A DNA stretch of 64,000 bases, from contig NZ_QCYM01000014.1 of the NCBI RefSeq assembly GCF_003075075.1, positions 1-64,000 on the forward strand. Reading direction: 5' to 3'. Shown piece by piece: positions 16,870 through 47,026 of the stretch. The stretch is from Labrenzia sp. 011. Its GTDB lineage: Bacteria; Pseudomonadota; Alphaproteobacteria; Rhizobiales; Stappiaceae. How positions within the stretch are numbered: the first letter of the stretch is position 1; each line of letters opens with the position of its first letter. The translations under genes were made by a program, and so were the position numbers. The notes beneath the pieces are model-generated. The model was not told the origin of the DNA and did not search any database. It worked only from the letters and a program-made list of their open reading frames with translations.

Positions 16870-18225
16870 TCAACGCGACAGCACGACAAGGTCGAGCGGT
16901 TGCGCCACACCGGGCACATCGGCTCCGGGACGCTCCTCGACCGGGGACATTCGCAAGCCCTGATCACGGGCCAGGTCCCAGGTAGGTCTGTCGGTCAAGA
17001 CCCGGGTCGCCTGAATCTTGTTGGCGTCCTCCAGCTTCGCGGCCCTGTTGACCGCATCGCCGATGACGGTGAATTCCAGACGGGACTTCGATCCGATCAC
17101 CCCCGCCGTGACCGTGCCCGCGGCAACCGCCGCGCCAACGCTCAAACGGCCGGGCCAGCCCGCCGCGGAAAATCGGGATTGGCCGGCATCGACACTTTCG
17201 ACCAGACGCGTGGCCGCCCGCAATGCGTCGGCGGCATAGGTAGCAGAGGGCTGGATGGCACCGAATGTGGCCAGGATGCCGTCGCCCAGGAACTTGTCGA
17301 CGCGTCCGCCCTCCTGAACGATCACGTCCACGACCAGGTTCTGGTACTCGGCAAGCACTGCCAGAACCGTCTCTGGCGGCAGGCCGGAGGATGTGGCCGT
17401 AAAGGCCCTGATGTCGGCAAAGAGGATCGCGGCATCCCGGAGAGTGCCCTCCCCGGTCTGCAGCTGCATTTCCGCGCCGGTGATCGACGCGGCTACTTCG
17501 GGCGAAAAGAAGCGGCGCAGGTCTGTCGCCGCCGCATGGTCGCGGGTGGCCTCGAAGAGCATCGACCGCCCCCGGTAGAGCACGGCGGAAAGAATGACGG
17601 TCACCGCCAGGATGACCATCGTCTTGTCGAGTTCCGCCCCGATCAGGATCGTGTTGCCGGTCAGATAGTCCACATAATTGCGGGTCACCCGCATGTGATC
17701 CATGTCCGCCAGAACCGCATAGAAGACCAGTCCCAGCCAGCCGGCAACGGCGGCAAGCCCCGTGGTCAGAACATAACGCGGATCGAACCTGAGCGCCCTC
17801 AAGGCAATGAAAATGAACACATACATCAGGGTCGGGGTCTTGAGATAGAATGTCGGATGCTGGCCGTACTGGATGTGGAAGGAAAATATCAGCCCGACCA
17901 GCAGCGCCATGTCGACGCCGATCGAGACCAGCAGATACCAGTTCGGAAGCTCGAACCTGTAGGACAGGACCAGTCGCGACACGGTGAAAAGGAAATAGAT
18001 GCCCAGAGCGACCGGAACGAAATTGAACCCGGCCGATCCCTCCGCCCTCGGGGCAATCGCGTAAAGGGTCGAAAAGAAGAGCACCAGACCCAGCTGGACC
18101 CAGCCGATCAGCCGCTCCGATGATGCTTCACGGGCGCGAATTTCCGCCCGCACCCTGGCCGGAATGCCGGTCTCCGGCGGACCGCCGCGGAAAATATAGC
18201 GCAAGGTATCCAGAAATGAGCTCAT
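16870..18225 (-). CDS. Membrane-bound class III adenylate/guanylate cyclase
   Basis: A 451-residue protein starting at ATG 18225. Six hydrophobic segments between residues 38 and 220 form a membrane anchor. A short linker (RRFFSPEVAASITGAE) leads into the cyclase homology domain from about residue 255. Metal-binding aspartates are in AILFADIRAFT and GRVDKFLGDGILATFG; EFTVIGDAVNRAAKLE holds the purine- and transition-state-binding residues. It should make cAMP (cGMP less likely) as a homodimer at the inner membrane. The adjoining LuxR regulator and the cyclic-nucleotide-binding protein 3 kb away are candidate partners. Confidence 0.9.
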   Translation of the reverse strand: MSSFLDTLRYIFRGGPPETGIPARVRAEIRAREASSERLIGWVQLGLVLFFSTLYAIAPRAEGSAGFNFVPVALGIYFLFTVSRLVLSYRFELPNWYLLVSIGVDMALLVGLIFSFHIQYGQHPTFYLKTPTLMYVFIFIALRALRFDPRYVLTTGLAAVAGWLGLVFYAVLADMDHMRVTRNYVDYLTGNTILIGAELDKTMVILAVTVILSAVLYRGRSMLFEATRDHAAATDLRRFFSPEVAASITGAEMQLQTGEGTLRDAAILFADIRAFTATSSGLPPETVLAVLAEYQNLVVDVIVQEGGRVDKFLGDGILATFGAIQPSATYAADALRAATRLVESVDAGQSRFSAAGWPGRLSVGAAVAAGTVTAGVIGSKSRLEFTVIGDAVNRAAKLEDANKIQATRVLTDRPTWDLARDQGLRMSPVEERPGADVPGVAQPLDLVVLSR

Positions 18226-18469
18226 GCTTGTCCAGTCGGGAGCCTGCTGTTTTCAGATAGACGCGGGATCGCTCAAGGGCCCAGGTCCGCTCAACCTTGC
18301 CGCTTCGAATGTTGCCGCTTGATGGCAAGTAGATCGGGGCGATTGACGGGAGTTTCAACTCTCGCGACCGAATGTGCAACACGCGCAACGGGAAAGTGAG
18401 CGATGCGTGACAACGCGCACCGGAAAGCCACCGCCGGACCCGACACCCGATCAACCGCATCTTTCGACT

Positions 18470-19621: not shown

Positions 19622-19812
19622 GATCCCCCCTTGGACCTGATGTCAATTATCCCGGCGGCTTCAGATCGTTTGGCATCAAACCTTTACATGAGCGTTTTGT
19701 CGCACCTTAGCCCAAATGGACCATGCACTTAATGTATACACCCTGTAAACAACTATTGATCGCATTGGACTGTCAATCGGGACGTGTTTTTCAAGCTCCG
19801 ACTGACGGTTTC

Positions 19813-19913
19813 CCGGTTGCGCTACAGGAATTCCCGCATTCCTGCGACCGGCAATCGATCAACTTTTAAGCCATAGTGTTTTTTGGGCGGCCGTTTGGGC
19901 CGCCCTTTTTTTT
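19813..19913 (+). ncRNA. Candidate structured small RNA with intrinsic terminator
   Basis: No protein gene precedes this terminator on the plus strand: the nearest gene to the left reads away. The RNA would contain a long stem-loop: CCGGTTG (19813-19819) pairs with CGACCGG (19845-19851, one G-U), enclosing CAGGAAT (19825-19831) paired with ATTCCTG (19838-19844). A single-stranded AU-rich stretch of about 33 nt follows, then the terminator stem at 19885-19905 with eight Ts. This is the classic layout of an Hfq-type trans-acting sRNA. The 5' end is uncertain and may lie 50-100 bases further left. Confidence 0.55.
19885..19913 (+). terminator. Strong Rho-independent terminator
   Basis: GGGCGGC (19885-19891) and GCCGCCC (19899-19905) form a perfect 7-bp stem with loop CGTTTGG, followed by an unbroken run of eight Ts (19906-19913) and preceded by a T-run. 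It is the strongest intrinsic terminator in the window. Confidence 0.9.
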
Positions 19914-20420
19914 CGCCGGATGGCCTGCAACAGGCACAGAAGATCACTGTCCGCGGGCGTTTCCACATTGACGGGCCGGCTTGTCACAAGGTGGCTTTCC
20001 CCGGCATGTGCCATGCGCCAGCTTGTCTGTGCGCCCCGGGAAAATCGGCCGGTTTCTGTGGTCCTCGAAAGATTTCAGTCATCCGGCGACCGCAGGCGGC
20101 ATCTTTTCCGGAGCCCCTGAATACGAGTTCGCAGAACACTTCGCAGACAATGAAGTCCGGTGTCATGGAAGCCGGAACGCGGGAAAGGCGGGAAAAGGAG
20201 CGGGTTTCACGGGAATGCCCCTTTCCGCAGCCCGGCATCGGCAGCAGTTTCTTCCGCCCGCCCCCACTCCGTTCAGAGAATGAAAAATACAACCTGCCTG
20301 ACACCTGGCGGCAAATTCAGCACGACCCCGGCGCCGGAAGCGCTTTTCATGCCAGGGGAAGCAAGGGTCCTGACGAAGGCCGTGACCATCCGCCCGGGCC
20401 GGTCCGTTCGCAAGAAGCCA
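19914..20420. other. Intergenic region after the terminator
   Basis: 507 bases between the terminator and the stop of the leftward MBL gene. Several frames are open on both strands but none has a ribosome-binding site or a recognisable product. I see no further feature. Confidence 0.5.
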
Positions 20421-21245
20421 TCAGGGGCGCAGGATCATGCTTTCGCTCGCGACCAGCATGCCGGGATAGGCATCCTGCGCGGCAAGGCCGATCTCATCCA
20501 GTTCATCGTCCGTGCGGCGCGGGTCATGGTGGAAGAGAACCGGGGTCTTGACGTTTCCCGCCCTGGCAAGCTCGACCGCCTTTTGCCAGGTGGAATGTCC
20601 CCACCCCTTGAAGGTCGGATATTCCTCGTCCGTGAACATGGCATCGTAGATCATCACATCCGCGTCCCGGACGAATTCCGGCAGAGCGGCATCGATCTCC
20701 GGATCTCCGTGTTCATGGTCGGTGATGATGCAGATGGATTTGCCGTGATAGTCGAAACGGTAGCCACAGGCCCCGCCCGGGTGATTGAGGCGGGTGGTGC
20801 GGATCTCCAGATCATCCGTGCGGGGAATGGGGTCGCCGGCAGTGAAGGACTTGAACTCGACCGCTTTCAGGGTCTTGGCGGCGACCGGAAAGATCGGCGG
20901 CGACATGATGCGGCTGACAATTTCGATCAGGCTGGTGTCATCCTGAAAGTGCCCCGCCCAGGCAGTCACCTCGAAATTGGGATCGTAGGCCGGCTTGAAG
21001 AAAGGCAGTCCGCAAATGTGATCGAGATGCGTGTGGGTGAACAGCAGATCGAACGAGCGCGGCCTGCATCCGCACAGCTCCATGCCGAGGTTCCGCGCAC
21101 CGGAGCCGCAATCGACGAGCACGAGTGCGTCACCTGCCCGGATCTCGAAACAGGAGGTTTCGCCTCCGTACCGCAAAGTGCTTGACCCGGGTGTCGGGGT
21201 CGAGCCCCGGACGCCCCAAAAGCGCAGCGAAAATTCCTCAGACAC
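20421..21245 (-). CDS. MBL-fold metallo-hydrolase
   Basis: A 274-residue metallo-beta-lactamase-fold protein starting at GTG 21245 behind AGGGAG. The opening LRFWGVRGSTPTPG and YGGETSCFEIRAGDALVLVDCGSG are typical of the RNase Z/PhnP-like branch. The metal-binding HTHLDH is at residues 71-76, the bridging histidine is in TRLNHPGGACGYRF, and TDHEHGD and DAMFTDEE supply the later ligands. Relatives include phosphodiesterases and arylsulfatase-like enzymes. Given the adjoining cyclic-nucleotide-binding gene 10 bp upstream, a cyclic-nucleotide phosphodiesterase is one attractive possibility. The order ABC / cNMP-binding / MBL forms one leftward operon. Confidence 0.85.
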   Translation of the reverse strand: MSEEFSLRFWGVRGSTPTPGSSTLRYGGETSCFEIRAGDALVLVDCGSGARNLGMELCGCRPRSFDLLFTHTHLDHICGLPFFKPAYDPNFEVTAWAGHFQDDTSLIEIVSRIMSPPIFPVAAKTLKAVEFKSFTAGDPIPRTDDLEIRTTRLNHPGGACGYRFDYHGKSICIITDHEHGDPEIDAALPEFVRDADVMIYDAMFTDEEYPTFKGWGHSTWQKAVELARAGNVKTPVLFHHDPRRTDDELDEIGLAAQDAYPGMLVASESMILRP

Positions 21246-21816: not shown

Positions 21817-24399
21817 CTACCCTTTATCTGAAATCCGTCCCTGGTCCAGAATGAACCGCTGATCGAATTCTGCCGCTATATCGGCATTGGACGTACCGAA
21901 CAGGAAAGTCTTGCCGGACAGTATTTCCTGCAGACCACGGCGCAATGCCTTGTCGTCTTCAGTCGTACCTGTGGCGATATCATCCAATATGGTGATTTTT
22001 GCATTTTTCAGAAGCCCCCGGACCAGCGCGATCCGGCGCCGCTGGCCTGCGGACAGACGGGACCCGGATACGCCGACATGGTAATCGAAGCCTGCGTAGA
22101 TGATCGGACGCCGCAATCCGGTCTCTTCCACGATCGCGCGGATGACGTCGTCGATGCGACGGCGCGCATCCCGACGGTCGACCCTTGCCCGGCCGAAGAG
22201 AAGGTTGTCCTCGATGGTCAGCGGCGGCAGATAGACATCCGGATCGAAGGCGACGAAGCCGGGATTGTTCTTGACGACTGTTTGCAGGAAGGCCTTGCGC
22301 GCCTCGATGACCTCATCGCGGAACGCGTCGGTCATGATTCCCAGACGATGGCGGGCCGGGACCATCTTGAACGCCAGCCCCCTGAGTCTGGACCTGTCCG
22401 CGTCGCTCAGTCCCGGCCGCTGCTGGTCCGATTTGGCGATCCGCACGATCCGCTCGAATTCGGGGATTTCATCCTGGGTGATGAACGAATACGCGCCCAG
22501 AAGGCCGCTGTCTCCGGAGACGTTCGAAAACAGTTCCAGCATGGTCTCGGCGATCTTCAGGCCGACCTTCTGCAGCTTTTCGTCAAGCCCGGTCTCGGTG
22601 AGGAAGGCTCTGACCTCCGCCATTTCCGGCACCTGATCCATGGTGATTTCAGGATCGGCGGGAACGGCGAAGAACAGGTTGTCCGCAATATTCGCGCTCG
22701 CGTTGAAGCGATCGGGATGCCAGAGCTCCACCAGACCTTCGAGGGCCGGCTCCTGCAGGATCCTGGAGGCGAGACTCTTGCGCACATTCAGGATCTTCCC
22801 GGTGAAGGCGTCATCCATCGACGGATCGAAACGTGACTGCAGGCCGAGACGGTAGATATCCTTGTCGAGCCCCACGGATTCCAGAAGCTCCAGCGCCTTT
22901 TCGTCGAGCACATGGATGTTGTCGGCTCCTGCCGCTTCCAGGTCGTCCCAGACCGCCTCCAGATCGTAGACCGGATTGCGGGTTTCATTCGCTTCGCTGA
23001 CACGCCGCTTGTACAGCCGCAGCTCTTCGCCTTCGCGTTGGGGCGGAATCAGCGGTCTGTGGCGCAATCCGTAATAGAGATTGTCGCGGATGGTCCCGGT
23101 CCACACGTGGACCGCACCTCCTACATAGGCAATCTCGCGGCCGAGAGTGGAATCCGTCAGCTTGTCGAGATCGTGGGGGCCAATGCAGATCTTGCCCGAG
23201 GAAGGCGACACCAGTCCCGCCGCCAGTTGCAGCACTTCCGAACGGCCGGAGCCGTCGGGTCCGGCAATGGCGCAGGCGGTGCCCGCCGGAACGGTCAGGG
23301 AGATGTCCATGACCTCCTGGCCGGCAGCCCCGCCGGAAAAACTGACATTGTCGAATACAAGATCGCCACTGAGCTCGACCTTGTCGTCCGCGGTCAGACG
23401 TTCGGTGTCGTAAAGGTCCGGCGGATCGAAATTCTCGACAACCGTCTGATACTTGACGCTGACATCGGCAGTCATCTGATAGAAGGACAGCAGCTCCTTC
23501 CAGGGACCGGCCAGATCCTTGTAGGCCGCGATCACCGCCAGCAGCGCACCGATGCTCAGGTTGCCTTCGATCACCAGATAGCCGCCGATCAGGTAGAAGA
23601 AGAACGGCGTCAGCTGGTTCATGAAGTTGTTGAGGAACTTGATGAGGAATTTCCGGTTGAAGATCTCGTAGCGGATCCGGAAATTCTCATAGAGGCGGTC
23701 GGAAATATCCGCCGAATGCCAGGCCGCGGCATCGTTGGCGTGGATCTCCGCCACACCGGTGATGCTCTCGCCCACCTTGTCGGCGATCACGCGGATATTG
23801 CGGACCCGCTGGCGCGACAGAATGACGACCCGCTTCTGCAGCATCGGGATGACATACCCCTGAATCGGATAGGAGCTGACCGCCGCCAGGCCCAGCAGCG
23901 GATCCTGCATGAAGATGAACCCGAGCTGGACCACCAGCATACCGCCCTGATAGGCGGGAAGCGCGAAGGCCTCGCCGATATATCCGCCGACATCCTCGAC
24001 TTCCGACGTGATCATCGGGATGATTTCACCGGAGCTGACTTTGCGGAAATGCGGCAGCCGAAACCGCAGGACGCGCTGGAACAGTTCGAAACGCAGGCGC
24101 CTGAGCATGCGTTCGCCCAAACGTCCCTTGTAGACGTTCAGATAGAACTTCAGGCCATTGGAGACCACCACGAGGCCGAGAAAGGAAAAGCAGAGAAGCA
24201 GAAGGTAGGGGATCTGGTCGAAGTCGACGCCAAGTATCGAGCGGGGAAAGTTGGCACCCTGAACCGCGTCGTTGACGATCAGTTTCGGCAGCTCCAGAAG
24301 AACATAGACCACCGGGTAGGACAGCACTGTGACCAGAAGAATATAGATCTGTTGCCGGGCGCTATACTTCCAAATAAAGCTAAAAAGGCTTTTTTCCAT
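21817..24399 (-). CDS. Degenerate ABC exporter-like protein with enlarged ATPase domain
   Basis: An 860-residue fusion. Start ATG 24399 (MEKSLFSFIWKYS); a TTG nine codons upstream is less likely. Residues 10-310 form an ABC_membrane exporter domain with about six membrane segments. The nucleotide-binding domain begins near residue 340. Its Walker A is GPDGSGRS (380-387), with Arg for the essential Lys; the Q-loop Gln is absent (YVGGAVHVWTGTI); the signature SRLSAGQ is kept (780-786); Walker B is ITILDD, with Asp for the catalytic Glu; no H-loop His is seen. Between Q-loop and signature there are about 340 residues instead of about 55. ATP hydrolysis is doubtful; a signalling or scaffolding role is possible. 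First gene of a three-gene operon. Confidence 0.85.
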   Translation of the reverse strand: MEKSLFSFIWKYSARQQIYILLVTVLSYPVVYVLLELPKLIVNDAVQGANFPRSILGVDFDQIPYLLLLCFSFLGLVVVSNGLKFYLNVYKGRLGERMLRRLRFELFQRVLRFRLPHFRKVSSGEIIPMITSEVEDVGGYIGEAFALPAYQGGMLVVQLGFIFMQDPLLGLAAVSSYPIQGYVIPMLQKRVVILSRQRVRNIRVIADKVGESITGVAEIHANDAAAWHSADISDRLYENFRIRYEIFNRKFLIKFLNNFMNQLTPFFFYLIGGYLVIEGNLSIGALLAVIAAYKDLAGPWKELLSFYQMTADVSVKYQTVVENFDPPDLYDTERLTADDKVELSGDLVFDNVSFSGGAAGQEVMDISLTVPAGTACAIAGPDGSGRSEVLQLAAGLVSPSSGKICIGPHDLDKLTDSTLGREIAYVGGAVHVWTGTIRDNLYYGLRHRPLIPPQREGEELRLYKRRVSEANETRNPVYDLEAVWDDLEAAGADNIHVLDEKALELLESVGLDKDIYRLGLQSRFDPSMDDAFTGKILNVRKSLASRILQEPALEGLVELWHPDRFNASANIADNLFFAVPADPEITMDQVPEMAEVRAFLTETGLDEKLQKVGLKIAETMLELFSNVSGDSGLLGAYSFITQDEIPEFERIVRIAKSDQQRPGLSDADRSRLRGLAFKMVPARHRLGIMTDAFRDEVIEARKAFLQTVVKNNPGFVAFDPDVYLPPLTIEDNLLFGRARVDRRDARRRIDDVIRAIVEETGLRRPIIYAGFDYHVGVSGSRLSAGQRRRIALVRGLLKNAKITILDDIATGTTEDDKALRRGLQEILSGKTFLFGTSNADIAAEFDQRFILDQGRISDKG

Positions 24400-24888: not shown

Positions 24889-26106
24889 ATGAGTTCCAAG
24901 ACGCCGAAGATTCTGATTTACAGCCACGATTCCTTCGGACTTGGCCATCTGCGGCGCTGCCGCGCGATTGCTCATTCCCTGGTCGGGGATTTTGATACGC
25001 TGTCCGTGCTCATCCTCTCGGGCTCGCCGATCATCGGCAGTTTCGAGTTCCGTTCGCGCGTCGATTTCGTCCGCATTCCGGGCGTCATCAAGCTGCGCGA
25101 CGGCGAATACACGTCGCTTTCCCTGCACATCAACATCGACCAGACGCTGGCGATCCGCTCGTCGATCATCGAGCATACCGCCAAGGTCTTCGAGCCCGAC
25201 ATCTTCATTGTCGACAAGGAGCCGCTCGGATTGCGCGGCGAGGTGCTGCGCACGCTGGAAGCGCTCAAGGAGACGGACACGCGGCTGGTGCTCGGTCTGC
25301 GGGACGTGATGGACGACCCGGAGGTTCTCAAGGAAGAATGGGACCGCAAGAACGTCTATCCCGCGCTGAGGGATCTCTATGACGACATCTGGATCTACGG
25401 CCCGCAGGACATATGCGATCCGCTGGAAGGCATAAGCCTGCCGGATACTGTTGCGGACAAGCTGCGCTATACCGGTTACCTGCGCCGCGGCCTGCCGAAT
25501 GCGGTCAAGGACAATCCGCCGCCAACCCCCTTCGGCGAAGAACCCTATATCCTGGTCACCCCCGGTGGCGGGGGCGACGGCGTCGAAATGGTGGACTGGG
25601 TGATGCGCGCCTATGAAACCCGCCAGCGCCCGCTTTTTCCCGCCCTGATCGTGCTCGGCCCGTTCATGCCGGCCGCGGCCGCGACCCAGTTCAGCGAGCG
25701 GGCGGAACATTTGCGCGACGTGGAGATCATCCGCTTCACGCCGCAGATCGAACCCTATCTCGCCCATGCCACGGCAATTGTCGGCATGGGAGGCTACAAC
25801 ACCTTCTGCGAGATCCTATCCTTCGACAAGCCGACACTGATGGTGCCGCGGGTGGTGCCGCGCCGGGAGCAGGCCATCCGCGCCGAACGGGCCGAACAAA
25901 GCGGCCTGCTCAAGGTCCTGCCGATCGACCGCTACCCGGATCCGGATCTCATGTCGGCCGCCCTGTCGGAACTTCCCGCGATGGCCGCTCCCTCCTCCGC
26001 CGGCGTCGACAATCTCCTTGGCGGACTTGAGGTCATCACCTCCCGGGTGGGTGAAATCTTCGAAGAACAACTGTCCGCCGACGGCCGCAAACTGGTCAAT
26101 TTCTAA
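24889..26106 (+). CDS. MurG-like (GT28/GT-B fold) glycosyltransferase
   Basis: A 405-residue protein starting at ATG 24889 behind AGGGGC. The N-terminus KILIYSHDSFGLGHLRRCRAIAHSL is the glycine-rich loop of GT-B enzymes that approach a UDP-sugar donor. The C-terminal half has YILVTPGGGGDGVEMVDWV and the donor-site segment VGMGGYNTFCEILSFDKPTLMVPRVVPRREQAIRAERAEQSG, as in MurG/MGT-type transferases. No signal or membrane segment; it should work at the cytoplasmic face of the inner membrane. First gene of a five-gene rightward operon. Confidence 0.85.
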   Translation: MSSKTPKILIYSHDSFGLGHLRRCRAIAHSLVGDFDTLSVLILSGSPIIGSFEFRSRVDFVRIPGVIKLRDGEYTSLSLHINIDQTLAIRSSIIEHTAKVFEPDIFIVDKEPLGLRGEVLRTLEALKETDTRLVLGLRDVMDDPEVLKEEWDRKNVYPALRDLYDDIWIYGPQDICDPLEGISLPDTVADKLRYTGYLRRGLPNAVKDNPPPTPFGEEPYILVTPGGGGDGVEMVDWVMRAYETRQRPLFPALIVLGPFMPAAAATQFSERAEHLRDVEIIRFTPQIEPYLAHATAIVGMGGYNTFCEILSFDKPTLMVPRVVPRREQAIRAERAEQSGLLKVLPIDRYPDPDLMSAALSELPAMAAPSSAGVDNLLGGLEVITSRVGEIFEEQLSADGRKLVNF

Positions 26107-26150: not shown

Positions 26151-27371
26151 ATGTCCCGTATCGCCGTTGTGGTCAAAGGCTACCCGCGCCTGTCCGAGAC
26201 CTTCATTGCCCAGGAGATTCTCGGCCTGGAACGGCGGGGCATCGGCATTCTGATCGTCGCGCTGCGCAAGCCCTACGACCCCTACATTCACGAGCTGCAC
26301 CGCCAGATTTCCGCCGAGGTGATGTATCTGCCCGAGTATGTGAAGGACGACCCGGCCCGGGTCGCCCGGGCCCGGCGCTGGGCCGAAAGACAGCCGACCC
26401 ATGACGCTGCCAGGGCCCTGTTCGATGCGGATTTCGCCCGCCAGCCCAATGCGGACCGCCAGCGCCGCTGGGCGCAGGGCTGCGTGCTTGCCCACGAACT
26501 GCCAGACGACGTCTCCTGGATCTATACCCACTTTCTGCACACGCCCTGCTCGGCCGGCCGCTACGCGGCCCATCTTTCCGGACGCGGCTGGTCCTTTTCC
26601 GCCCATGCGAAGGACATCTGGACCAGTCCGGAATGGGACCTGAGAACCAAGATCAACGATGCGGCCTGGGGCGTCACCTGCACGCGCGTCAATGCCGACC
26701 ATCTCAAAAACCTGTCGGACGACCCGGACAAGGTCGAGCTGCTTTATCACGGCCTGGATTTCTCCGGTTTTCCGATGCCCGATCCCGCCCCTGCCCGCCG
26801 CGACGGCACTGGTGAGCCGGTCCGGCTCGTCTCCGTCGGCCGGGCGGTGGAGAAGAAGGGCTATGACGACCTTCTTGCAGCGCTCGCCCGTCTGCCCGGG
26901 GGGCTCAACTGGCATTTCACCCATATCGGTGGCGGCGAACTGTCGGATGTCCTGAAGGCGGAAGCGGACGGACTTGGCCTTTCGGACAGGATCGACTGGC
27001 GCGGCGCGCAGCCGCGCGAGGAAGTGATTTCCGCCTGCCAGAAAGCCGATCTCTTCGTACTGCCGTCCAAACTGGCGAAATCCGGGGACCGGGACGGCCT
27101 GCCCAATGTTCTGATGGAAGCCCAGTCCATGGGGATTTGCTGCCTGTCGACGCACGTGTCGGCCATTCCGGAACTCATCAGGGACGGCGAGACCGGCGTT
27201 CTGGTCGCGCCCGGAACGCCGGGGGATCTTGCCGAGGCCCTGGAGAGTCTTGTCCGCGACCCGGACCGCCGCAACGTGCTCGGGCTGGCGGCCTCCCGCC
27301 GGGTCCGCGAGGAATTCGCCACCAACCCGGGCCTCGATCGCCTGGAAGAAAAGTTCCGGAAGGTGCTCTGA
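26151..27371 (+). CDS. GT4 family glycosyltransferase
   Basis: A 406-residue GT-B fold enzyme, ATG 26151, 44 bp after the previous stop. IAVVVKGYPRLSETFIAQEILGLERRG is a common GT4 N-terminus. The C-terminal donor domain shows PVRLVSVGRAVEKKGYDDLLAALARL, followed by the retaining E-x7-E motif area in LPSKLAKSGDRDGLPNVLMEAQSMGICCLSTHVSAIPELIRDGETGVLV. It probably adds a hexose with retention of configuration to a growing cell-surface glycan. The neighbours are further glycosyltransferases. Confidence 0.88.
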   Translation: MSRIAVVVKGYPRLSETFIAQEILGLERRGIGILIVALRKPYDPYIHELHRQISAEVMYLPEYVKDDPARVARARRWAERQPTHDAARALFDADFARQPNADRQRRWAQGCVLAHELPDDVSWIYTHFLHTPCSAGRYAAHLSGRGWSFSAHAKDIWTSPEWDLRTKINDAAWGVTCTRVNADHLKNLSDDPDKVELLYHGLDFSGFPMPDPAPARRDGTGEPVRLVSVGRAVEKKGYDDLLAALARLPGGLNWHFTHIGGGELSDVLKAEADGLGLSDRIDWRGAQPREEVISACQKADLFVLPSKLAKSGDRDGLPNVLMEAQSMGICCLSTHVSAIPELIRDGETGVLVAPGTPGDLAEALESLVRDPDRRNVLGLAASRRVREEFATNPGLDRLEEKFRKVL

Positions 27372-27394
27372 GTGCCCGGCCTGGAAGGATCCTC

Positions 27395-28522
27395 ATGAAG
27401 ATCGCCTTTACCGCGCCGATGAAACCGCTCGACCATCCCGTTCCCTCCGGCGACCGGACCATGGGACGGCTGATCGTCAAGGCTCTGCAGGCGGGCGGGC
27501 ATGAGGTCAGTGTTGCCAGCACCTTCCGGTCCTGGCGCAAGGACGGCGGCGATGCGATCCAGTCGGACGTCAGGGCCGACGCCCTGCGCGAGGCGGAGCG
27601 GATCGCCGGCGACTGGCAGAAGAGCGGCTACCGGCCGGACCTGTTTCTGACCTATCACCTTTACCACAAGGCGCCGGACTGGATCGGCCCCGCGCTCGCC
27701 GACCGGTTCGGCCTGCCCTATGCCATTGTCGAGGCCAGCCGCGCCCCGAAACGTCGGACAGGCGACTGGGCCTTCGGCTTCGCCTCCGCCGACGCGGCTC
27801 TGCAGCGGGCCGACGCCGTGGCGGCCATCCATAATGCCGATGCCGAATGCCTGCGCGCGGTCGTTCCGGACGCGCGGCTGGAGGTGCTTCTACCGTTTCT
27901 CGACACCGCCCCCTACCGGCAGGCGGCCGAGACCGCAAAGCCGCTGGCGGCCCTGCCGCTGAAGCTGCTGGCAGTCGGCATGATGCGCGAGGGCGACAAG
28001 ACCCGCTCCTATGAGGTTCTGGCCGCCGCCCTGCAGCAGATTCAGGACAGGGCCTGGCAATTGACGATCATCGGCGACGGGCCGAACAGGGATCATGTGC
28101 TGAAGCTGTTTCCACCGGACAAGATCGCCTGGCTGGGCGCCCTGCCCGAAGACCGGCTTGCCGTTCACTATGCGCGCCACGACCTGCTTGTCTGGCCGGC
28201 CATGCGCGAGGCCTATGGTCTCGTGCTTCTGGAAGCCCAGGCGGCGGGCATCGGGATTGTCGCCGGGGACACTTTCGGCGTGCCGGATATCGTCGTTGAC
28301 GGCGAGACGGGCCTGCTTTCTGCGGAAGGTGACCCGCAGGGCTTCGCGGTCAACCTGGAACGCATTCTCGACGACCCTGCGCTGGCCGACAGGCTGGGGC
28401 ATGCGGCCCGCCAGCATATCGAAAGCCGTCATTCTCTCGAGGCCGGATCGGCGCGGCTCGATGCCTTCGTGCGCAGGGCGGTGCGAAACCATGATGTGCG
28501 CAGGGAGACCGGTGCCCCATGA
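27395..28522 (+). CDS. GT4-like glycosyltransferase
   Basis: A 375-residue protein starting at ATG 27395 (MKIAFTAPMKPLDHPVPSGDRTMGRLIVKALQAGGHEV), 23 bp after the previous gene; longer readings into that gene are rejected. The C-terminal half, LKLLAVGMMREGDKTRSYEVLAAALQQ... TIIGDGPNRDHVLKLF... LVWPAMREAYGLVLLEAQAAGIGIVAGDTFGVPDIVVDGETGLL, is a GT4 donor-binding domain with the E-x7-E-like EAYGLVLLE. N-terminal similarity to other families is weaker. Its stop overlaps the next start by 4 bp (ATGA). Confidence 0.85.
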   Translation: MKIAFTAPMKPLDHPVPSGDRTMGRLIVKALQAGGHEVSVASTFRSWRKDGGDAIQSDVRADALREAERIAGDWQKSGYRPDLFLTYHLYHKAPDWIGPALADRFGLPYAIVEASRAPKRRTGDWAFGFASADAALQRADAVAAIHNADAECLRAVVPDARLEVLLPFLDTAPYRQAAETAKPLAALPLKLLAVGMMREGDKTRSYEVLAAALQQIQDRAWQLTIIGDGPNRDHVLKLFPPDKIAWLGALPEDRLAVHYARHDLLVWPAMREAYGLVLLEAQAAGIGIVAGDTFGVPDIVVDGETGLLSAEGDPQGFAVNLERILDDPALADRLGHAARQHIESRHSLEAGSARLDAFVRRAVRNHDVRRETGAP

Positions 28523-29673
28523 GCTTCAGGGCCTTCATTCATGTGCAGCATCTTCTGGGCACCGGCCATGTGGTCCGGGCAGCCAGCATCGGCAAGGCGC
28601 TTGCCGAAAGGGGCATGGAGGTCACGCTGGCCAGCGGCAACCGGATCCCGCCCACGCTGGACACCGGGGACCTGACGATCGTCGAGCTTCCGGCCTGCAA
28701 GAGCCCGGACGCAGCCTTCAAGCGCCTTGTCACTTTGGACGGTGAAGTTATTGACGAGGCTTGGAAATCCGCCCGTGTTAAAGCATCGATTCAAGCGTTC
28801 GGAGCGCAGGACTTCGACCTGCTGCTGACGGAGACCTATCCCTTCGGCCGGCGTCAGCTCGATTTCGAGCTGACGCCGCTTCTGGAAACCGCCAGGGCGC
28901 GGGCAAGACCGCCGCTCATCGCCACCTCCATTCGCGACATTCTCGTGCGCAAGAAGGACCTGTGGAAAGAGGAATGGATGGCGGATCAGGCGCTCAGGTT
29001 CTACGACCGCATCCTGATCCATTCCGATCCGGACTTCATCCGGCTTGCCGACAGTTTTCCCTTCGCGGAGCGTGTCGACCCTCTGGTGCGCTACACCAGC
29101 TATGTGGGCGGTGGCGCGCGGCCGGCGGCGGAGGGACGCGACGGCCAGGACGAGGTGATCATTTCCTGCGGCGGCGGCGCGGTCGCCGAAGGCCTGCTGT
29201 CCGCCGCCCTTGAGGCCCGCCCCCTGTCGCGGCGTGCGGAGGACACCTGCTGGCGGGTGCTGATCGGCCACGATGTGTCGCAGGAAGCCTTTGCGATCTA
29301 CCAAAGGAACGCGGGCGACGGCGTGATCGTGGAGCGTGCCCGCAGGGATTTTCCCGAGCTGCTGAAACGGGCAAGGCTTTCGGTGAGCCAGGCCGGCTAC
29401 AATACGGTGCTCGATATTCTCATCGCCGGGGTTCCGGCGGTTCTCGTGCCCTTTGCCCAGGCCAACGAGACGGAACAGAGCCAGCGGGCCGAAGCTCTGG
29501 CGCGCCATGGACGCGCCGTCGTGGCTCCGGAGGCAGGCCTGACGCCGGAGCGGCTGGCCGGTGCCATCGACGACGCCCTCGCCCTGCCCCGCAGTCACCA
29601 CCGGGTGATGCTGGGCGGCGCGGAAAAGAGCGCCGACATTCTTCTGAACGATCTGGAGGGCCGCAAGGAATGA
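28519..29673 (+). CDS. MurG-like (GT28) glycosyltransferase
   Basis: A 384-residue GT-B fold protein starting at ATG 28519. The N-terminus FIHVQHLLGTGHVVRAASIGKALAERGMEVTLASG parallels the first gene of the operon. The C-terminal EVIISCGGGAVAEGLLSAAL and LSVSQAGYNTVLDILIAGVPAVLVPFAQANETEQSQRAEALARHGRAVV form the MurG/UDP-glycosyltransferase donor site. It overlaps both neighbours by 4 bp, implying translational coupling. Together with the gene at 24889 it gives two MurG-like and two GT4 enzymes in one pathway. Confidence 0.88.
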   Translation: MSFRAFIHVQHLLGTGHVVRAASIGKALAERGMEVTLASGNRIPPTLDTGDLTIVELPACKSPDAAFKRLVTLDGEVIDEAWKSARVKASIQAFGAQDFDLLLTETYPFGRRQLDFELTPLLETARARARPPLIATSIRDILVRKKDLWKEEWMADQALRFYDRILIHSDPDFIRLADSFPFAERVDPLVRYTSYVGGGARPAAEGRDGQDEVIISCGGGAVAEGLLSAALEARPLSRRAEDTCWRVLIGHDVSQEAFAIYQRNAGDGVIVERARRDFPELLKRARLSVSQAGYNTVLDILIAGVPAVLVPFAQANETEQSQRAEALARHGRAVVAPEAGLTPERLAGAIDDALALPRSHHRVMLGGAEKSADILLNDLEGRKE

Positions 29674-30446
29674 CACCGGACCTGCAACGCTTCAGGGATG
29701 AACTGACCGCCCATCTGGACTGGTTTGCCGAGCGGGGCCGCAAGGTGCGCTTCTGGTGGCGGGACGACGATGCGGTCGAACCGACGCCGGCGCTCGAGCG
29801 CATGCTCGATCTGGCCAACCGGCACGATGTCGACATCGCCCTTGCGGTCATCCCGAAGGATGCCACCGCAGCGCTGGCCGACCGGCTAAGGGACGAGCCC
29901 CATGCCCATGTGCTGCAGCACGGCTGGCAGCACCGGAATTTTCAGCGCAAGGACCTGGGCGAGAAGGCGGCCGAACTCGGATCGCGCCGCGATCCTCAGG
30001 AACTGATGGCTCAGCTTGCCGACGGCAAGGCGCGGCTGGAAGACCTGTTCGGCGGAAAATTCATTGCCGCCATGGTGCCGCCGTGGAACCGGATCGATGC
30101 GGAAATATCCCGCCGCCTGCCGGACATCGGCCTGCCGGGCCTGTCCACCTTCACCTGGCACAATTTTCCCCGCCCCCATCAGATCCAGTCCCATGTGGAC
30201 ATCATCAAATGGAAGAAGCAGGTGCGTTTCATCGGCTGGGAAAGCGCCCGCCTGCGCTTCGACCTGCACCTGACCCGCCGCCGCAACACCGGCGGCGAAC
30301 CGCTCGGCCTGCTGACGCACCATCTGGCCCATGACACGGGCTGCTTCGACTTCCTGGAAGAATTCCTGGCCATTGCCGCCCATCACGAGGGCGCCGAGTG
30401 GCCGGACGTGAGAGATTTGTTCACCGGGCCCAGCTCATCTTGTTAG
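29670..30446 (+). CDS. Polysaccharide deacetylase-like protein
   Basis: A 258-residue protein starting at ATG 29670, overlapping the previous gene by 4 bp. KVRFWWRDDDAVEPTPALERMLDLANRHDVDIALAVIPKDA holds the acidic metal-site motif of NodB-homology (CE4-like) deacetylases. HVLQHGWQHRNF provides the H-x3-H ligands, and AMVPPWNRID is the third motif. The C-terminal LGLLTHHLAHDTG gives a late histidine. No signal peptide, so it would act on a cytoplasmic lipid-linked intermediate. Last gene of the operon; it probably N- or O-deacetylates the sugar placed by the preceding transferases. Confidence 0.85.
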   Translation: MTPDLQRFRDELTAHLDWFAERGRKVRFWWRDDDAVEPTPALERMLDLANRHDVDIALAVIPKDATAALADRLRDEPHAHVLQHGWQHRNFQRKDLGEKAAELGSRRDPQELMAQLADGKARLEDLFGGKFIAAMVPPWNRIDAEISRRLPDIGLPGLSTFTWHNFPRPHQIQSHVDIIKWKKQVRFIGWESARLRFDLHLTRRRNTGGEPLGLLTHHLAHDTGCFDFLEEFLAIAAHHEGAEWPDVRDLFTGPSSSC

Positions 30447-40806: not shown

Positions 40807-41988
40807 TCACTTATAGGGATCTGCCGCATCGCGCAAACCGTCGCCGAGAAAATTGAACGCCAGAACCACGATGATGATCGGCAGCACCGGCGCCATCAGC
40901 CAGGGATAGACGGTGACGACGGAGATGTTCTGCGCCTCGTTCAGCAGAACGCCCCAGGAGACGGCGGGACGCCGCAGGCCCAGATTGAGGTAGGACAGCG
41001 CGGTTTCGCCCAGGATCATCGCCGGGATCGACAGGGTCGCGGAAGCGATGATGTGGCTGGTGAACCCGGGCAGCAGATGGCGGGTGATGACCCGTCCGGG
41101 CTTGGCGCCCATGAGCACCGCCGCCTTGGCGTATTCCTCCTCGCGCAGCGAAAGAAGCTTGGAGCGCACGGCACGCGCCAGCCCGGGCCAGTCGAGCAGG
41201 CCGAGGATGACCGTCAGGCCGAAATAGATCCAGACCGGGCTCCAGGTGACCGGCAGCGCCGCGGAGAGCGCCATCCACAGGGGCAGTTCCGGCAGGGAGC
41301 GGATGATCTCGATCATCCGCTGGATCATGTTGTCGAGGAAGCCGCCGAAATATCCGGCAATGCCGCCGAAGAACAGGCCGAGCACGATGGAGATGGTCAC
41401 GCCGACAAGCCCCACCGTGAGCGACAGACGGGCGCCATAGACGAGGCCGGAGAACTGGTCGCGGCCCAGCCGGTCGGTGCCCAGAAGGAACAGGGTCCCC
41501 TCCTCCGCCGGACAGAACAGGTGAAAGCTGGTGTCGAACAGGCCCCAGAACTCGTAAGGGGCGCCGCTGCAGAAGAAACGGATCCGCTGCACGTCGCTCT
41601 TGTCGTCCGTGAAGACCCATTGCAGGGTTTCCATGTCGAGGGACGACTGCATGCCGTAGACGAACGGCCCCACCAGGCGGCCCTCATGGAACAGATGCAC
41701 CGGCTGGGGCGGCGCGTAGAGATGGTCGCTGTCGCGCATGTTGGGCGTGTAGGGGGCGATCGTCTCGGCGAAGGGAACGCAGAGGTAGAAGAGGATCAGC
41801 ACGACGCCGGACCAGACGGCGAGCTTGTGGCGCTTGAACTTCCACCACATGATCTTCCACTGGGAAGCCTGGTAGAAGCGCTCCTGCTCGGCCGTCATTT
41901 CCTCGGTGACCGCCGGATTGAACGGAGCCGGGTCGACGTAATGCTCGACGTCCCGATCCGGGGTCCTGTCTCTCAGGTCCATGCTCAT
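40807..41988 (-). CDS. Peptide-type ABC transporter permease (DppC/OppC family)
   Basis: A 393-residue inner-membrane protein starting at ATG 41988, overlapping the other permease by 4 bp. A cytoplasmic N-terminus of about 50 residues carries the OppC_N region (WWKFKRHKLAVWSGVVLILFYL). The first periplasmic loop is unusually long (about 100 residues, with a Cys pair in FFCSGAPYEFWGLFDTSFHLFC). The BPD_transp_1 core follows, with the EAA loop LREEEYAKAAVLMGAKPGRVITRHLLP. It forms the translocation pore with the DppB-type protein. Confidence 0.93.
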   Translation of the reverse strand: MSMDLRDRTPDRDVEHYVDPAPFNPAVTEEMTAEQERFYQASQWKIMWWKFKRHKLAVWSGVVLILFYLCVPFAETIAPYTPNMRDSDHLYAPPQPVHLFHEGRLVGPFVYGMQSSLDMETLQWVFTDDKSDVQRIRFFCSGAPYEFWGLFDTSFHLFCPAEEGTLFLLGTDRLGRDQFSGLVYGARLSLTVGLVGVTISIVLGLFFGGIAGYFGGFLDNMIQRMIEIIRSLPELPLWMALSAALPVTWSPVWIYFGLTVILGLLDWPGLARAVRSKLLSLREEEYAKAAVLMGAKPGRVITRHLLPGFTSHIIASATLSIPAMILGETALSYLNLGLRRPAVSWGVLLNEAQNISVVTVYPWLMAPVLPIIIVVLAFNFLGDGLRDAADPYK

Positions 41989-43010
41989 GACGAAGCCCCC
42001 CCGCCTAGCCGTATCCGGGGATCAAGCACCGCCAGCAGCAGATCGGAAATCAGCATGCCGATGAGCGTGAGCACCGCGACGAAGAGAAGGATGAAGCCGG
42101 AGAGGAACTGGTCCTGCGACTGCAGCGCCGACAGCAGCACGGGGCCGACGGTCGGCAGGCTCATCACCACGGAGACGATCACCGACCCGGAGACCAGCGA
42201 CGGGATCAGGTTGCCGATATCGGCGATGAAGGGATTGATGGCCATGCGCAGCGGGTATTTGACCAGTAGCTGGCTTTCCTTCAGGCCCTTCGCACGGCCC
42301 GTGGTGACATACTGCTTGTGCAGCTCGTCGAGAAGATTGGCGCGCAGGCGCCGGATCATGGCGGCGGTTCCGGAAGTGCCGATGACGATGGTCGGCACGA
42401 TCAGATGCGCCAGCACCGACGTCGCCTTGCCGAGGCTCCACGGCTGATCGATGTATTCCGGCGCCATCAGTCCTCCGACGGACAGGCCGAACCAGCGGTT
42501 GAAGAGATACAGCAGGATGAGGGCCAGCAGGAAGTTGGGCGTCGCCAGCCCCAGATACCCCAGAAAGGTGAAGCCGTAATCGCCCCAGGAATACTGGCGC
42601 GTGGCGGAGTAGATGCCGATGGGGAAGGACACCACATAGACAAAGAGGATGGTGGCGAAGTTGAGCACGATGGTCAGCGGAAGCGTCGGGCCGATGACCT
42701 GGTCGACCGGCTTGTCGAACTCGAAGGACCAACCCCAGTTGCCCTGGATGAGCCCCTCGAAGCCATGCGGCCCGGGCCACAGGCCGACCCACACGAGATA
42801 GCGTTCGAAGAACGGCCGGTCGAGCGAGAATTCCCGGCGCAGGAATTCCAGCTTGGCAATGGAGGACTGCTCCCCGCTCGATTTCAGGGCCGCGATCTGG
42901 TTGGAAATGTAATCTCCGGAGGGAAGTTCAATGATGAAGAATATCAGCAGGCTGATCACCAACAGGGTCGGGATCATCATCAATATCCGGCGAAAAATGT
43001 AATACAGCAC
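41985..43010 (-). CDS. Peptide-type ABC transporter permease (DppB/OppB family)
   Basis: A 341-residue inner-membrane protein starting at GTG 43010 behind AGGGGA. The N-terminal MLYYIFRRILMMIPTLLVISLLIFFIIELPSGD is the typical first membrane segment. After a periplasmic region (LRREFSLDRPFFERYLVWVGLW, LIQGNWGWSFEFDKPV) the six-segment BPD_transp_1 domain contains the EAA loop QYVTTGRAKGLKESQLLVKYPLRMAI. It follows the substrate-binding gene after 246 bp, a gap large enough for a processing or attenuating structure. Confidence 0.93.
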   Translation of the reverse strand: MLYYIFRRILMMIPTLLVISLLIFFIIELPSGDYISNQIAALKSSGEQSSIAKLEFLRREFSLDRPFFERYLVWVGLWPGPHGFEGLIQGNWGWSFEFDKPVDQVIGPTLPLTIVLNFATILFVYVVSFPIGIYSATRQYSWGDYGFTFLGYLGLATPNFLLALILLYLFNRWFGLSVGGLMAPEYIDQPWSLGKATSVLAHLIVPTIVIGTSGTAAMIRRLRANLLDELHKQYVTTGRAKGLKESQLLVKYPLRMAINPFIADIGNLIPSLVSGSVIVSVVMSLPTVGPVLLSALQSQDQFLSGFILLFVAVLTLIGMLISDLLLAVLDPRIRLGGGASS

Positions 43011-43256
43011 CTAATATCCCCTCTGCCCCGATAGTGTCCGCAAGGCAGTCCCCGGAGCAACCTGTTCTCGAGCGAAACCGGATTGCTCCAACACTTTATA
43101 ACCGATCCGCTCTTCCGTGACCCCGGTCGATGCGCATTCACTCCGCTCGACCAGGGCGGAGGCGGTGCCGCCGGTTCGTTCAGACCCTGTCCCAACAAAC
43201 CGGCCGCTGCTCCATGTCGCGCAACGCCGCAAGCCCTGCATCATCGCCCTTCGGGC

Positions 43257-45139
43257 TTACTTAGCCTTGTAGAACTCATCCATGCGGTGGATGCCGAAAT
43301 GCGCGCCCGGATCCCAGCCGTAGATGCCTTCAAGCGGCACGTTGCCGACTTCCTTGATCACCACCGGCTGGGGAACGCTGGAGACCAGACCGATGTGGAT
43401 GGTCTCGTCGGCATGGATCTGCAGCATTTCCTCCCAGATCTTCGTCCGCTCTTCCGCCGTCCGCGAGGTGAGCCAGGAATTGTACAGCTCCATCAGACGC
43501 TCGGCAGGTTCCCAGTCCGGCTTTTCGCCGCCTTCACCGCCGGTCTCGTAATAGTCGCCCCAGGCATTCCAGCTGAACCGGTCACCATGCACGGGGGCAT
43601 AGTCCTCCGGCGGCATCTCGGACGTCGGGATACCGTTTTCGAACCCCCACCAGACGGACATGACCAGCTGGCCGGTAATCGCCCGCTCGCGCATGTTGTC
43701 GCGCTGGCTGGGCTTGGGAAACAGTTCCACGCCGACCTCGCCCCACATCTCGGTGACAAGTTCGAGGGCATCGTCCTGAACCTGTTCCTCGCCTGCGGTC
43801 TCGACGATGATTTCCAGCGGCCGGCCGTCCGGCATCAGGCGGATGCCATCGTCATTGCGCTCGGTCAGGCCGATTTCGTCCAGCAGCGCATTGGCCTGTT
43901 CCGGATCGTATTCAGCCCATTTGTTCGTGTATTCAACCTTGTAGAGCGGGCTGGCGGGCAGAACCGTATCATTGCCCGGCTTGCCGAGACCGAAGAACAG
44001 CACGCGGTTGAGCAGCTTGCGGTCGATCGCCAGCGACAGCGCATGGCGGAAGCGGGTGTCGCGCAGCAATTCACGCCAGACCGGATCCTTGACCGTCAGG
44101 TTCGGCAGGATGGAGATTTCCGATCCCTTGGTGTTGGCCCAGAGGGCCGTCGTGTAGTCGTTCTGCTTTTCACCCTTCTTCAGCACGGTGATGTCGGCGA
44201 AGTTGAGATTGCGCGCCTGAAGATTGCTCTCGCCCGCCTGGGCCTTCGCCGGGATCAGCTTGCCGTCGGCGACGGTCATGATGACCTCGTCGAGATAGGG
44301 AAGCTGCTGACCGGCGGTGTCGACGCGGTGATAATAGGGGTTGCGTTCCAGAACGAAGCGCAGATCGCTGTCGCCGCGCTTGCGCACCCAGGGCTGCAGG
44401 CTCGGCATATCAACGTTCTGGGCGTTGTACATGTCGTCCTTCTTGTTGTGCAGCGGCGCCCAGCTGCGGGCCTTCACCTTTTCCGCCTCGCTGGTGATGA
44501 ACTCCGGATCGCCGTATTTTTCATGAAACTGCTTCAGGTAATGCGCCGGCCGGTAGATGAAGGGCGGGCGCGCCTTGGCCAGCTCCGGCAGGAAGAGCGG
44601 GTTGGGATCGTCCCAGGTGAAGCGCACCGTGGTCTCGTCCAGAACCTCGAAGACAGGGCCCTTGCCGTTGACTTCCAGGAACGGCGGCAGGCCCGCCGGA
44701 TTGAGCATCTCGTTGCTGACCACATCCTCGAAATAATAGCGGATGTCCTCGGCGCCGAAGGGATGGCCGTCCGACCATTTGTGCCCCTTGCGGGTCTGCA
44801 GGGTGAATATCCGGCCGTCCTCGACCGTCACGTCCTTCAGGATGTCGGGAACGAGTTCAAGTTCCTCGTTGTAGCCGACCAGCCGGGCATAGCCCCAGAC
44901 GTTGATCAGCCGGACATCCTTCGCGCGGCCGATCAGCGTGTCGATCGACCCGCCGTGGGTGCCGGTCTCGCGGCCCTTCGCTTCAAGGTCGACGATCAGG
45001 GGCTCGGCCGGGATCCGTTCGGCCACCGGAGGCAGCGAGGAATCGAGGCCCGGAGTTTCCTTCAGCTCCAGCGCGGCGAGCGGCCCCGCAATCAATGCGG
45101 CGGTCAGGAACAGACCCGCCCTTATGGAATTCAAGAGTG

Positions 45140-45143
<4 letters not shown>
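43257..45143 (-). CDS. ABC transporter periplasmic solute-binding protein (SBP_bac_5)
   Basis: A 628-residue secreted binding protein starting at ATG 45143, overlapping the ATPase gene by 4 bp. The signal peptide MTLLNSIRAGLFLTAALIAGPLAALEL is followed by the family-5 fold. Typical parts are GYNEELELVPDILKDVTVEDGRIFTLQTRKGHKWSDGHPFGAEDIRYYFEDV, and RFRHALSLAIDRKLLNRVLFFGLGKPG. It is longer than DppA/OppA (about 530) and nearer to the long YejA-like or sugar/peptide receptors. The substrate could be oligopeptides or an oligosaccharide. Confidence 0.9.

Positions 45144-47026
<1,883 letters not shown>

Follow-up and report, generated by a model that had tools for sequence, protein, structure and literature searches.

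Transporters of the ATP-binding cassette (ABC) type have a conserved ATPase as their defining feature. In UvrA and SMC/Rad50 such an ATPase carries large insertions in its helical or signature region, which consist of unrelated domains or coiled coils. PglK, the flippase of lipid-linked oligosaccharides, has a single helical subdomain. In TM287/288, TAP and ABCG5/G8, changes of the K-to-R and E-to-D type are found at a degenerate site, as described in the accessible part of PMC7756269. The msbA2 operon of Sinorhizobium meliloti comprises an acyltransferase, two glycosyltransferases and msbA2 (PMC3687685, accessible part), and removal of MsbA2 is harmful only with the upstream glycosyltransferases intact (PMC12239276, accessible part). 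Here, a 64,000-nt stretch of contig NZ_QCYM01000014.1 from Labrenzia sp. 011 (hereafter the window) was found to encode an ABCB-type half exporter of 860 residues whose single nucleotide-binding domain (NBD) contains the helical subdomain, from the Q-loop to the signature helix, three times in tandem, and whose family shares the absence of a complete ATPase site.

Compared with MsbA and other ABCB half exporters, the window protein has about 300 additional residues, incomplete ATPase motifs and extra subdomains, and it scored 172 bits with TIGR02203 against a cut-off of 602. PglK resembles it in two ways: residues 429-504 of structure 5c73 rank in the top three of the structural matches to copy 2, and PglK flips a glycan, the kind of role to which the locus points here. 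It differs in being ATP-driven according to the title of its entry. Whereas TM287/288, TAP and ABCG5/G8 hold one good site per dimer, a homodimer of the window protein would have two incomplete sites in addition to the triplication, and in contrast to UvrA and SMC/Rad50 its insert consists of further copies of the helical subdomain. MsbA2 is likewise an ABC exporter adjoining glycosyltransferases, but the S. meliloti locus found here has, ahead of the exporter gene, a GT4a-type glycosyltransferase together with importer genes; identity with MsbA2, judged on gene order and not on sequence, was unsupported. Bacteriocin-type exporters (TIGR03896/TIGR03796) share the linkage of an exporter to a cyclic-nucleotide-binding protein, and that of the window matched TIGR03896 at 7.9e-12; they differ in that TIGR03896 gave 45 bits against a cut-off of 161 and Pfam detected no peptidase domain in the 860-residue protein. 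No paper on this exporter family was recognised in literature searches covering a minor part of the subscription journals.

Triplication of the helical subdomain

The exporter frame contains no internal stop, and its product was matched by PF00664 (Pfam ABC_membrane, 60 bits against a cut-off of 28) and by ABC_tran (66 bits against 25, the match being broken into two pieces). A six-helix exporter-type membrane domain and a C-terminal ABC NBD fold are present, and the predicted structure of residues 1-860 matched exporters along its whole length in a structural search. By fold the protein belongs to the ABC exporters, and it is not classed as a classical ATP-driven transporter because it failed the test for a complete ATPase. 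The closest named relatives, from Roseibium/Labrenzia, are 85-86% identical, and public records mostly label relatives "ABC transporter ATP-binding protein" or "ABC transporter transmembrane domain-containing protein".

The original prediction, made from the sequence alone, had described about 340 residues before the signature and three TI-x-DNL-like segments within them, and had read these as a helical subdomain triplicated in one NBD. Each of these points held up. The first TI-DNL-G motif and the signature are separated by 338 residues, the P-loop (380) and the signature (782) by about 402, against 98-109 in eight ABC ATPases of the same genome, and the segments were located as GTIRDNLYYGL (435-445), ANIADNLFFAV (569-579) and LTIEDNLLFGR (727-737). 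The unit that is repeated extends from the Q-loop strand to a helix of the signature type, and copy 2 additionally holds a family-specific helical block at about 625-690.

Sub-profiles cut from the family alignment matched each other for copies 2 and 3 over 62 columns (551-613 with 709-770; E 5.2e-12, score 70.3), for copies 1 and 2 with E 5.7e-6 (score 39.3) and for copies 1 and 3 with E 2e-5 (score 33.6), and a second match between copies 1 and 2 paired their end helices (529-552 with 690-713, E 7e-5). Significance was judged from 40 column shuffles per pair, the best of which scored 23.3, 21.7 and 19.0 in the same order of pairs, and from reversed profiles, which scored 13.0, 20.1 and 17.5; control segments from the membrane domain or the N-terminal part of the NBD gave E 0.085 or worse. 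Because the profile scores exceed all shuffled and reversed controls, the likeness of the three segments is, on this statistical comparison, not due to chance. A profile of seven normal exporters from the same genome aligned with copy 3 end to end (4.5e-24), with copy 1 at the Q-loop (1.1e-11) and with copy 2 (2.2e-5), and in the phylum-wide search the insert profile produced a second match at copy 3, by position, in three proteins (6e-6 to 3e-5). The predicted structures fit the same arrangement: copy 2 folded alone had ABC exporters as all of its top three structural matches, at low Z (3.8-3.9). The anatomy of the protein can be regarded as practically certain. A known foreign domain as the source of the insert was considered and rejected, since Pfam searches of 40 members gave scattered weak matches only (best family 3/40) and a search of PDB sequences gave a single match with E 1.2.

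Loss of the ATPase site

Only one of the five ATPase motifs, the signature, is kept in the window protein. Walker A carries R386, the catalytic Glu of Walker B is replaced by D807, the Q-loop positions are G427/G428 and the protein has no H-loop His, all as originally predicted. With the signature, the Walker A Ser and the Walker B Asp retained, ATP binding by the protein is quite possible.

The alignment of 89 members consists of the window protein, 80 homologous loci and eight of 20 further regions, the other 12 being same-genus, near-duplicate or partial. Among the 89, GK[ST] was found in 3, the Q-loop Gln in 22, LS-GQ in 12, Walker B Asp-Glu in 9 and the H-loop His in 32; no member has all five motifs, the maximum is three, and 30 have none. 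In the control set of eight ABC ATPases from the same genome, scanned with looser patterns, P-loop, signature and LDE were present in 8/8. The Arg and Asp of the window protein proved not to be conserved traits: at position 386, 41 members have K and 40 have R, the next residue being often acidic (D 31, E 20), and at position 807, 51 have E and 16 have D. Signature position 786 is Gln in 84/89. What the family has in common is the absence of a complete ATPase site, with the motifs broken differently in different lineages. The original prediction had also held that the protein is probably not a classical transporter; this is supported by inference only.

A distant set of 25 comprises the window and 24 loci, of which at least four overlap with the 89: L037, L040 and L041 are also among them, and L160 shares motif rows with L103. 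L042 is cut upstream of the P-loop. In this set 21/25 lack all five ATPase motifs, the P-loop being altogether lost in distant members, and N574 and N732 are kept in 25/25. The very divergent long forms at L152, L157 and L162 have other sequence in place of the signature region and keep the N-L-F-G segments. The usual rule for ABC proteins is inverted here, the ATPase not being conserved in a family carried by about a third of the sampled Alphaproteobacteria.

Distribution and conservation

Homologues with the same insert were found in 36/36 other genomes of the genus, at 61-91% identity, and in 80/80 loci with full-length frames. These loci are the best 80 of 578 confirmed (two membrane-domain peptide patterns), and because the ranking followed similarity to the whole query, the presence of the insert in all of them and the high identity of the membrane domain are partly a product of that choice. 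The insert profile detected 31/398 Pseudomonadota genomes, all 31 in the Alphaproteobacteria, the class of the window; the insert also occurs in some metagenome-assembled genomes labelled Gammaproteobacteria or Burkholderiales, which may be a matter of labelling. With the membrane-domain profile (E <= 1e-50), the family was found in 95/289 Alphaproteobacteria genomes, and in this less selected view 96/110 matches lay in long frames and 14/110 in short frames of 292-425 residues, a count of frame length and not of insert presence. Replicon records with the family number 145 for Rhizobium and 80 for Sinorhizobium, and, again with less selection, 262/353 plasmid records have a single place covering at least 80% of the query. 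Azospirillum thermophilum has a form of 1020 residues adjoining importer and glycosyltransferase genes.

The conserved Asn of the three segments is kept in 85/89 (N440), 89/89 (N574) and 89/89 (N732) members, unit 2 has a length of 134-137 residues in all 89, and the distance from segment 3 to the signature is constant at 46 residues. Pairwise identity averages 57.7% in the membrane domain, 36.2% in the N-terminal part of the NBD, 34.8% in copy 1, 42.8% in copy 2 and 40.6% from copy 3 onward, and reaches 64.8% in segment 2 and 70.8% in segment 3. The median ratio of non-synonymous to synonymous substitution rates (dN/dS) in 15 same-genus or near sequences is 0.057 for the membrane domain and 0.197 for the insert, with dS near saturation; 62-91 of 105 pairs were used per region, pairs with extreme synonymous divergence being dropped. 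A smaller alignment, A2, holds the window and 71 of the 80 loci, and gene starts are guesses taken as the first start codon after a stop. Because of the invariant Asn, the conserved segments 2 and 3 and a dN/dS well below 1, the extra copies are under selection although the ATPase site is not kept. The claim of an intact frame encoding a maintained protein is borne out.

Genomic context

The exporter gene is followed downstream by the gene of a cyclic-nucleotide-binding protein of 152 residues (Table 1). Its stretch VGEIAILCDVPRTAT retains the Glu and Arg of the phosphate-binding cassette within the PF00027 domain, and across sites the GE....R residues are kept in 80/85 (Glu) and 85/85 (Arg). 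Over the 80 loci a homologue is separate in 72, fused in three (L086, L102, L111) and absent in five. The exporter gene is linked to a protein that keeps its cyclic-nucleotide-binding residues and that in some species forms one chain with the exporter. At L143-L148 and L161, too, a cyclic-nucleotide-binding domain is fused to the C-terminus of long forms, with no glycosyltransferase detected within the fetched stretch; as many as three copies per genome were noted, and several of the fused domains deviate from the usual GE....PR.AT motif.

Further downstream lie a metallo-hydrolase gene, whose product scores under the NCBIfam cut-offs for RNase Z and for cyclic-nucleotide phosphodiesterase, and a cyclase homologue. 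On the same strand and within 6 kb, the hydrolase was found in 19/80 and the cyclase in 17/80 loci; in the window and its relatives, mostly Stappiaceae, the transporter, receptor, hydrolase and cyclase genes stand in a single row. The genes at 16870-21245 of the window, beyond that of the cyclic-nucleotide-binding protein, may complete a full set for making, sensing and destroying a cyclic nucleotide.

On the other side, genes for four glycosyltransferases and a polysaccharide-deacetylase-like protein begin divergently from the exporter gene, and an Opp/Dpp-type importer lies about 10 kb past the glycosyltransferase genes, its homologues adjoining the exporter locus in other species. Among the 51/80 loci flanked by some 8 kb or more on each side, a separate cyclic-nucleotide-binding protein was found in 49, at least three of the four glycosyltransferases in 46, the deacetylase-like gene in 41, a phosphoglycerate-mutase-like gene in 30 and at least two of the four importer genes in 27, single importer matches being left uncounted because the dual-ATPase query also matches other ABC ATPases. 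Much of the same gene set is annotated in Rhizobium and part of it in Azospirillum thermophilum, and rhizobial plasmids also carry the glycan locus. The gene is tied to a glycan-building locus, and this linkage to glycosyltransferases suggests a glycan as the exporter substrate.

In R. leguminosarum, pRL110056 is described as an O-antigen biosynthesis gene needed for root colonisation (PMC11103875, accessible part). Judged by its number it may be one of the glycosyltransferases of this locus, which is a lead only. The muropeptide importer YejBEF (PMC9790009, accessible part) was considered for the importer of the window and rejected, the permeases being matched with higher scores by other Opp-type models than by those for YejB/microcin C.

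Relatives without a nucleotide-binding domain

For plasmids of Phaeobacter, Pseudosulfitobacter, Thalassospira and Defluviicoccus, the match to the query is confined to about residues 1-340, mostly at 36-42% identity. The four such genes inspected encode 399-434 residues and have copper-resistance surroundings in Phaeobacter, Pseudosulfitobacter and Thalassospira; three of these four (L166, L168, L169, L170) thus belong to copper-resistance islands carried by marine bacterial plasmids, and an extra N-terminal hydrophobic stretch was seen by eye. Among the 14 short frames, 12 accompany a long form in the same genome as a second copy and one (G611) lies at a contig end. Ten of the 15 short-form loci (11 genomic, 4 plasmid) have no NBD gene matching the exporter profile in the fetched stretch, and the remaining five have one about 1 to 8 kb away. 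Related membrane domains thus persist without a fused ATPase.

In a tree of 65 rows the short forms make up two clades. The copper-island clade (support 100/99) is placed among the long forms, and because its fork (93/94) falls under the strict threshold, separate losses of the NBD are likely, short of proof; the normal exporters in this tree have very long branches. The second clade (L173-L182) has only short membrane domains in varied surroundings, in genomes that also hold a long form, and L178 carries an in-frame stop. Coupling loop ICL1 has 12-23 residues in short forms (fewer than 19 in 11/14) and ICL2 28-47 (fewer than 41 in 13/14), against constant lengths of 19 and 41 in seven long forms, and a control stretch has 74 residues in both; one of four normal exporters also deviates in length. 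Such shortening is what would be expected from loss of the NBD partner.

Proposed function and alternatives

The loss of the ATP-burning residues and the gain of two additional subdomain copies, together with an intact gene for a cyclic-nucleotide sensor, suggest that the exporter motor was rebuilt into a signal-controlled part. The favoured mechanism, still tentative, is that of a glycan exporter or flippase whose pseudo-NBD serves as a docking and coupling platform under cyclic-nucleotide control and not as an ATPase. The membrane domain would flip or export a glycan or lipid-linked glycan built by the four glycosyltransferases, the enlarged pseudo-NBD would still grip the coupling helices, and the extra subdomains would dock the cyclic-nucleotide-binding subunit and couple it to the membrane domain. 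Opening would be governed mainly by cAMP or cGMP, perhaps with ATP binding as well, and there would be little need for hydrolysis. The locus would then be a glycan locus apparently under cyclic-nucleotide control, and the family offers a natural way of asking whether exporter folds can function when no ATP is hydrolysed.

A wider evolutionary scenario is more speculative, and we would hold it only with considerable doubt. One exporter line would have swapped its ATP engine for signal control: the subdomain was triplicated as a dock for the cyclic-nucleotide receptor, hydrolysis was abandoned, and a cAMP- or cGMP-gated glycan flippase or channel arose. Side branches would have fused the receptor, or shed the NBD and the coupling helices, as in the marine copper-island members, leaving ABC-type membrane domains that work without an ATPase.

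The protein could also be the degenerate half of an asymmetric ATP-driven exporter, with a partner half elsewhere in the genome providing the working site and the insert as an added regulatory feature, an explanation that seems unlikely though it has several points in its favour. It is common for a type I exporter to have one degenerate site, with similar substitutions (PMC7756269, accessible part), the coupling loops are fully kept in long forms, the signature Gln at 786 is nearly universal, and the genome holds other exporters. Yet each of Walker A, Q-loop, Walker B and H-loop is missing from the majority of members, and distant members have no P-loop at all. The recurrent ABC genes near the loci are of importer type in a search for named neighbour families, with additional unclassified ABC ATPase matches at L078, L096 and L097, and among the families searched no dedicated partner half with a good site was recognised, other exporters lying elsewhere in the genome.

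Absence of the P-loop from distant members also means that ATP sensing cannot be general, which tells against a nucleotide sensor or regulator that, like the sulphonylurea receptors, would bind ATP without hydrolysis and control the glycosyltransferases or some other membrane protein. The recurrent neighbour clusters inspected contained no recognisable regulated channel. The idea draws on K or R at position 386 in 81/89 members, though the next residue is often acidic, on the unusually conserved membrane domain and on the relatives without any NBD, and we judge it rather improbable.

Less probable still is a passive scaffold, in which the membrane domain would hold the glycosyltransferases at the membrane and the NBD would be a relic. 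It would account for the linkage to glycosyltransferases and for the membrane part retained in NBD-less relatives, but not for the invariant N574 and N732 of the extra copies, the low dN/dS or the fused forms (L143-L148, L161) in stretches without detected glycosyltransferases. An assembly error, local oddity or dying gene, to which the Walker motifs viewed alone might point, is rejected by the insert in all 36 genomes and 80 loci with full-length frames, the constant length of unit 2 and the dN/dS, and is hardly conceivable.

Features of the window

Table 1. Positions of the exporter gene, its parts and the surrounding genes in the window, with related membrane domains given by locus
Feature	Position	Strand	Remarks
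ABCB-type half exporter with triplicated helical subdomain	21817..24399	-	860 aa, ATG start; Pfam matches
Transmembrane domain, residues 1-330	23410..24399	-	conserved coupling loops ~108-126 and ~205-245
Degenerate Walker A GPDGSGRS, residues 380-387	23239..23262	-	R386
Copy 1, residues 423-556	22732..23133	-	Q-loop strand, TIRDNLYYG helix, linker, helices 495-549
Copy 2, residues 557-714	22258..22731	-	NIADNLFFA helix, helices, family-specific block, helix 691-709
Copy 3, residues 715-797	22009..22257	-	aligns end to end with normal helical subdomain; signature LSAGQ
Degenerate Walker B ITILDD, residues 802-807	21979..21996	-	D807 at catalytic position
Cyclic-nucleotide-binding protein, 152 aa	21256..21714	-	102 bp downstream of exporter gene; PF00027 72.3 bits, cut-off 27.5
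Metallo-beta-lactamase-fold hydrolase	20421..21245	-	10 bp further downstream
Adenylate/guanylate cyclase homologue	16870..18225	-	PF00211 41.6 bits, cut-off 21.9
Glycosyltransferase GT28a	24889..26106	+	divergent from exporter gene
Glycosyltransferase GT4a	26151..27371	+	
Glycosyltransferase GT4b	27257..28522	+	
Glycosyltransferase GT28b	28519..29673	+	family 28 C-terminal domain
Polysaccharide-deacetylase-like protein	29670..30446	+	Pfam 20.9 bits, just under cut-off 23.1
Opp/Dpp-type ABC importer	40807..47026	-	dual ATPase, binding protein, two permeases
Free-standing exporter-type membrane domains	L166 8773-10077; L168 6788-7987; L169 6758-8020; L170 6773-8077		no NBD

Elsewhere in the window, positions 10772-13003 hold a long open reading frame with a flagellar hook-length control (FliK-type) C-terminal domain.
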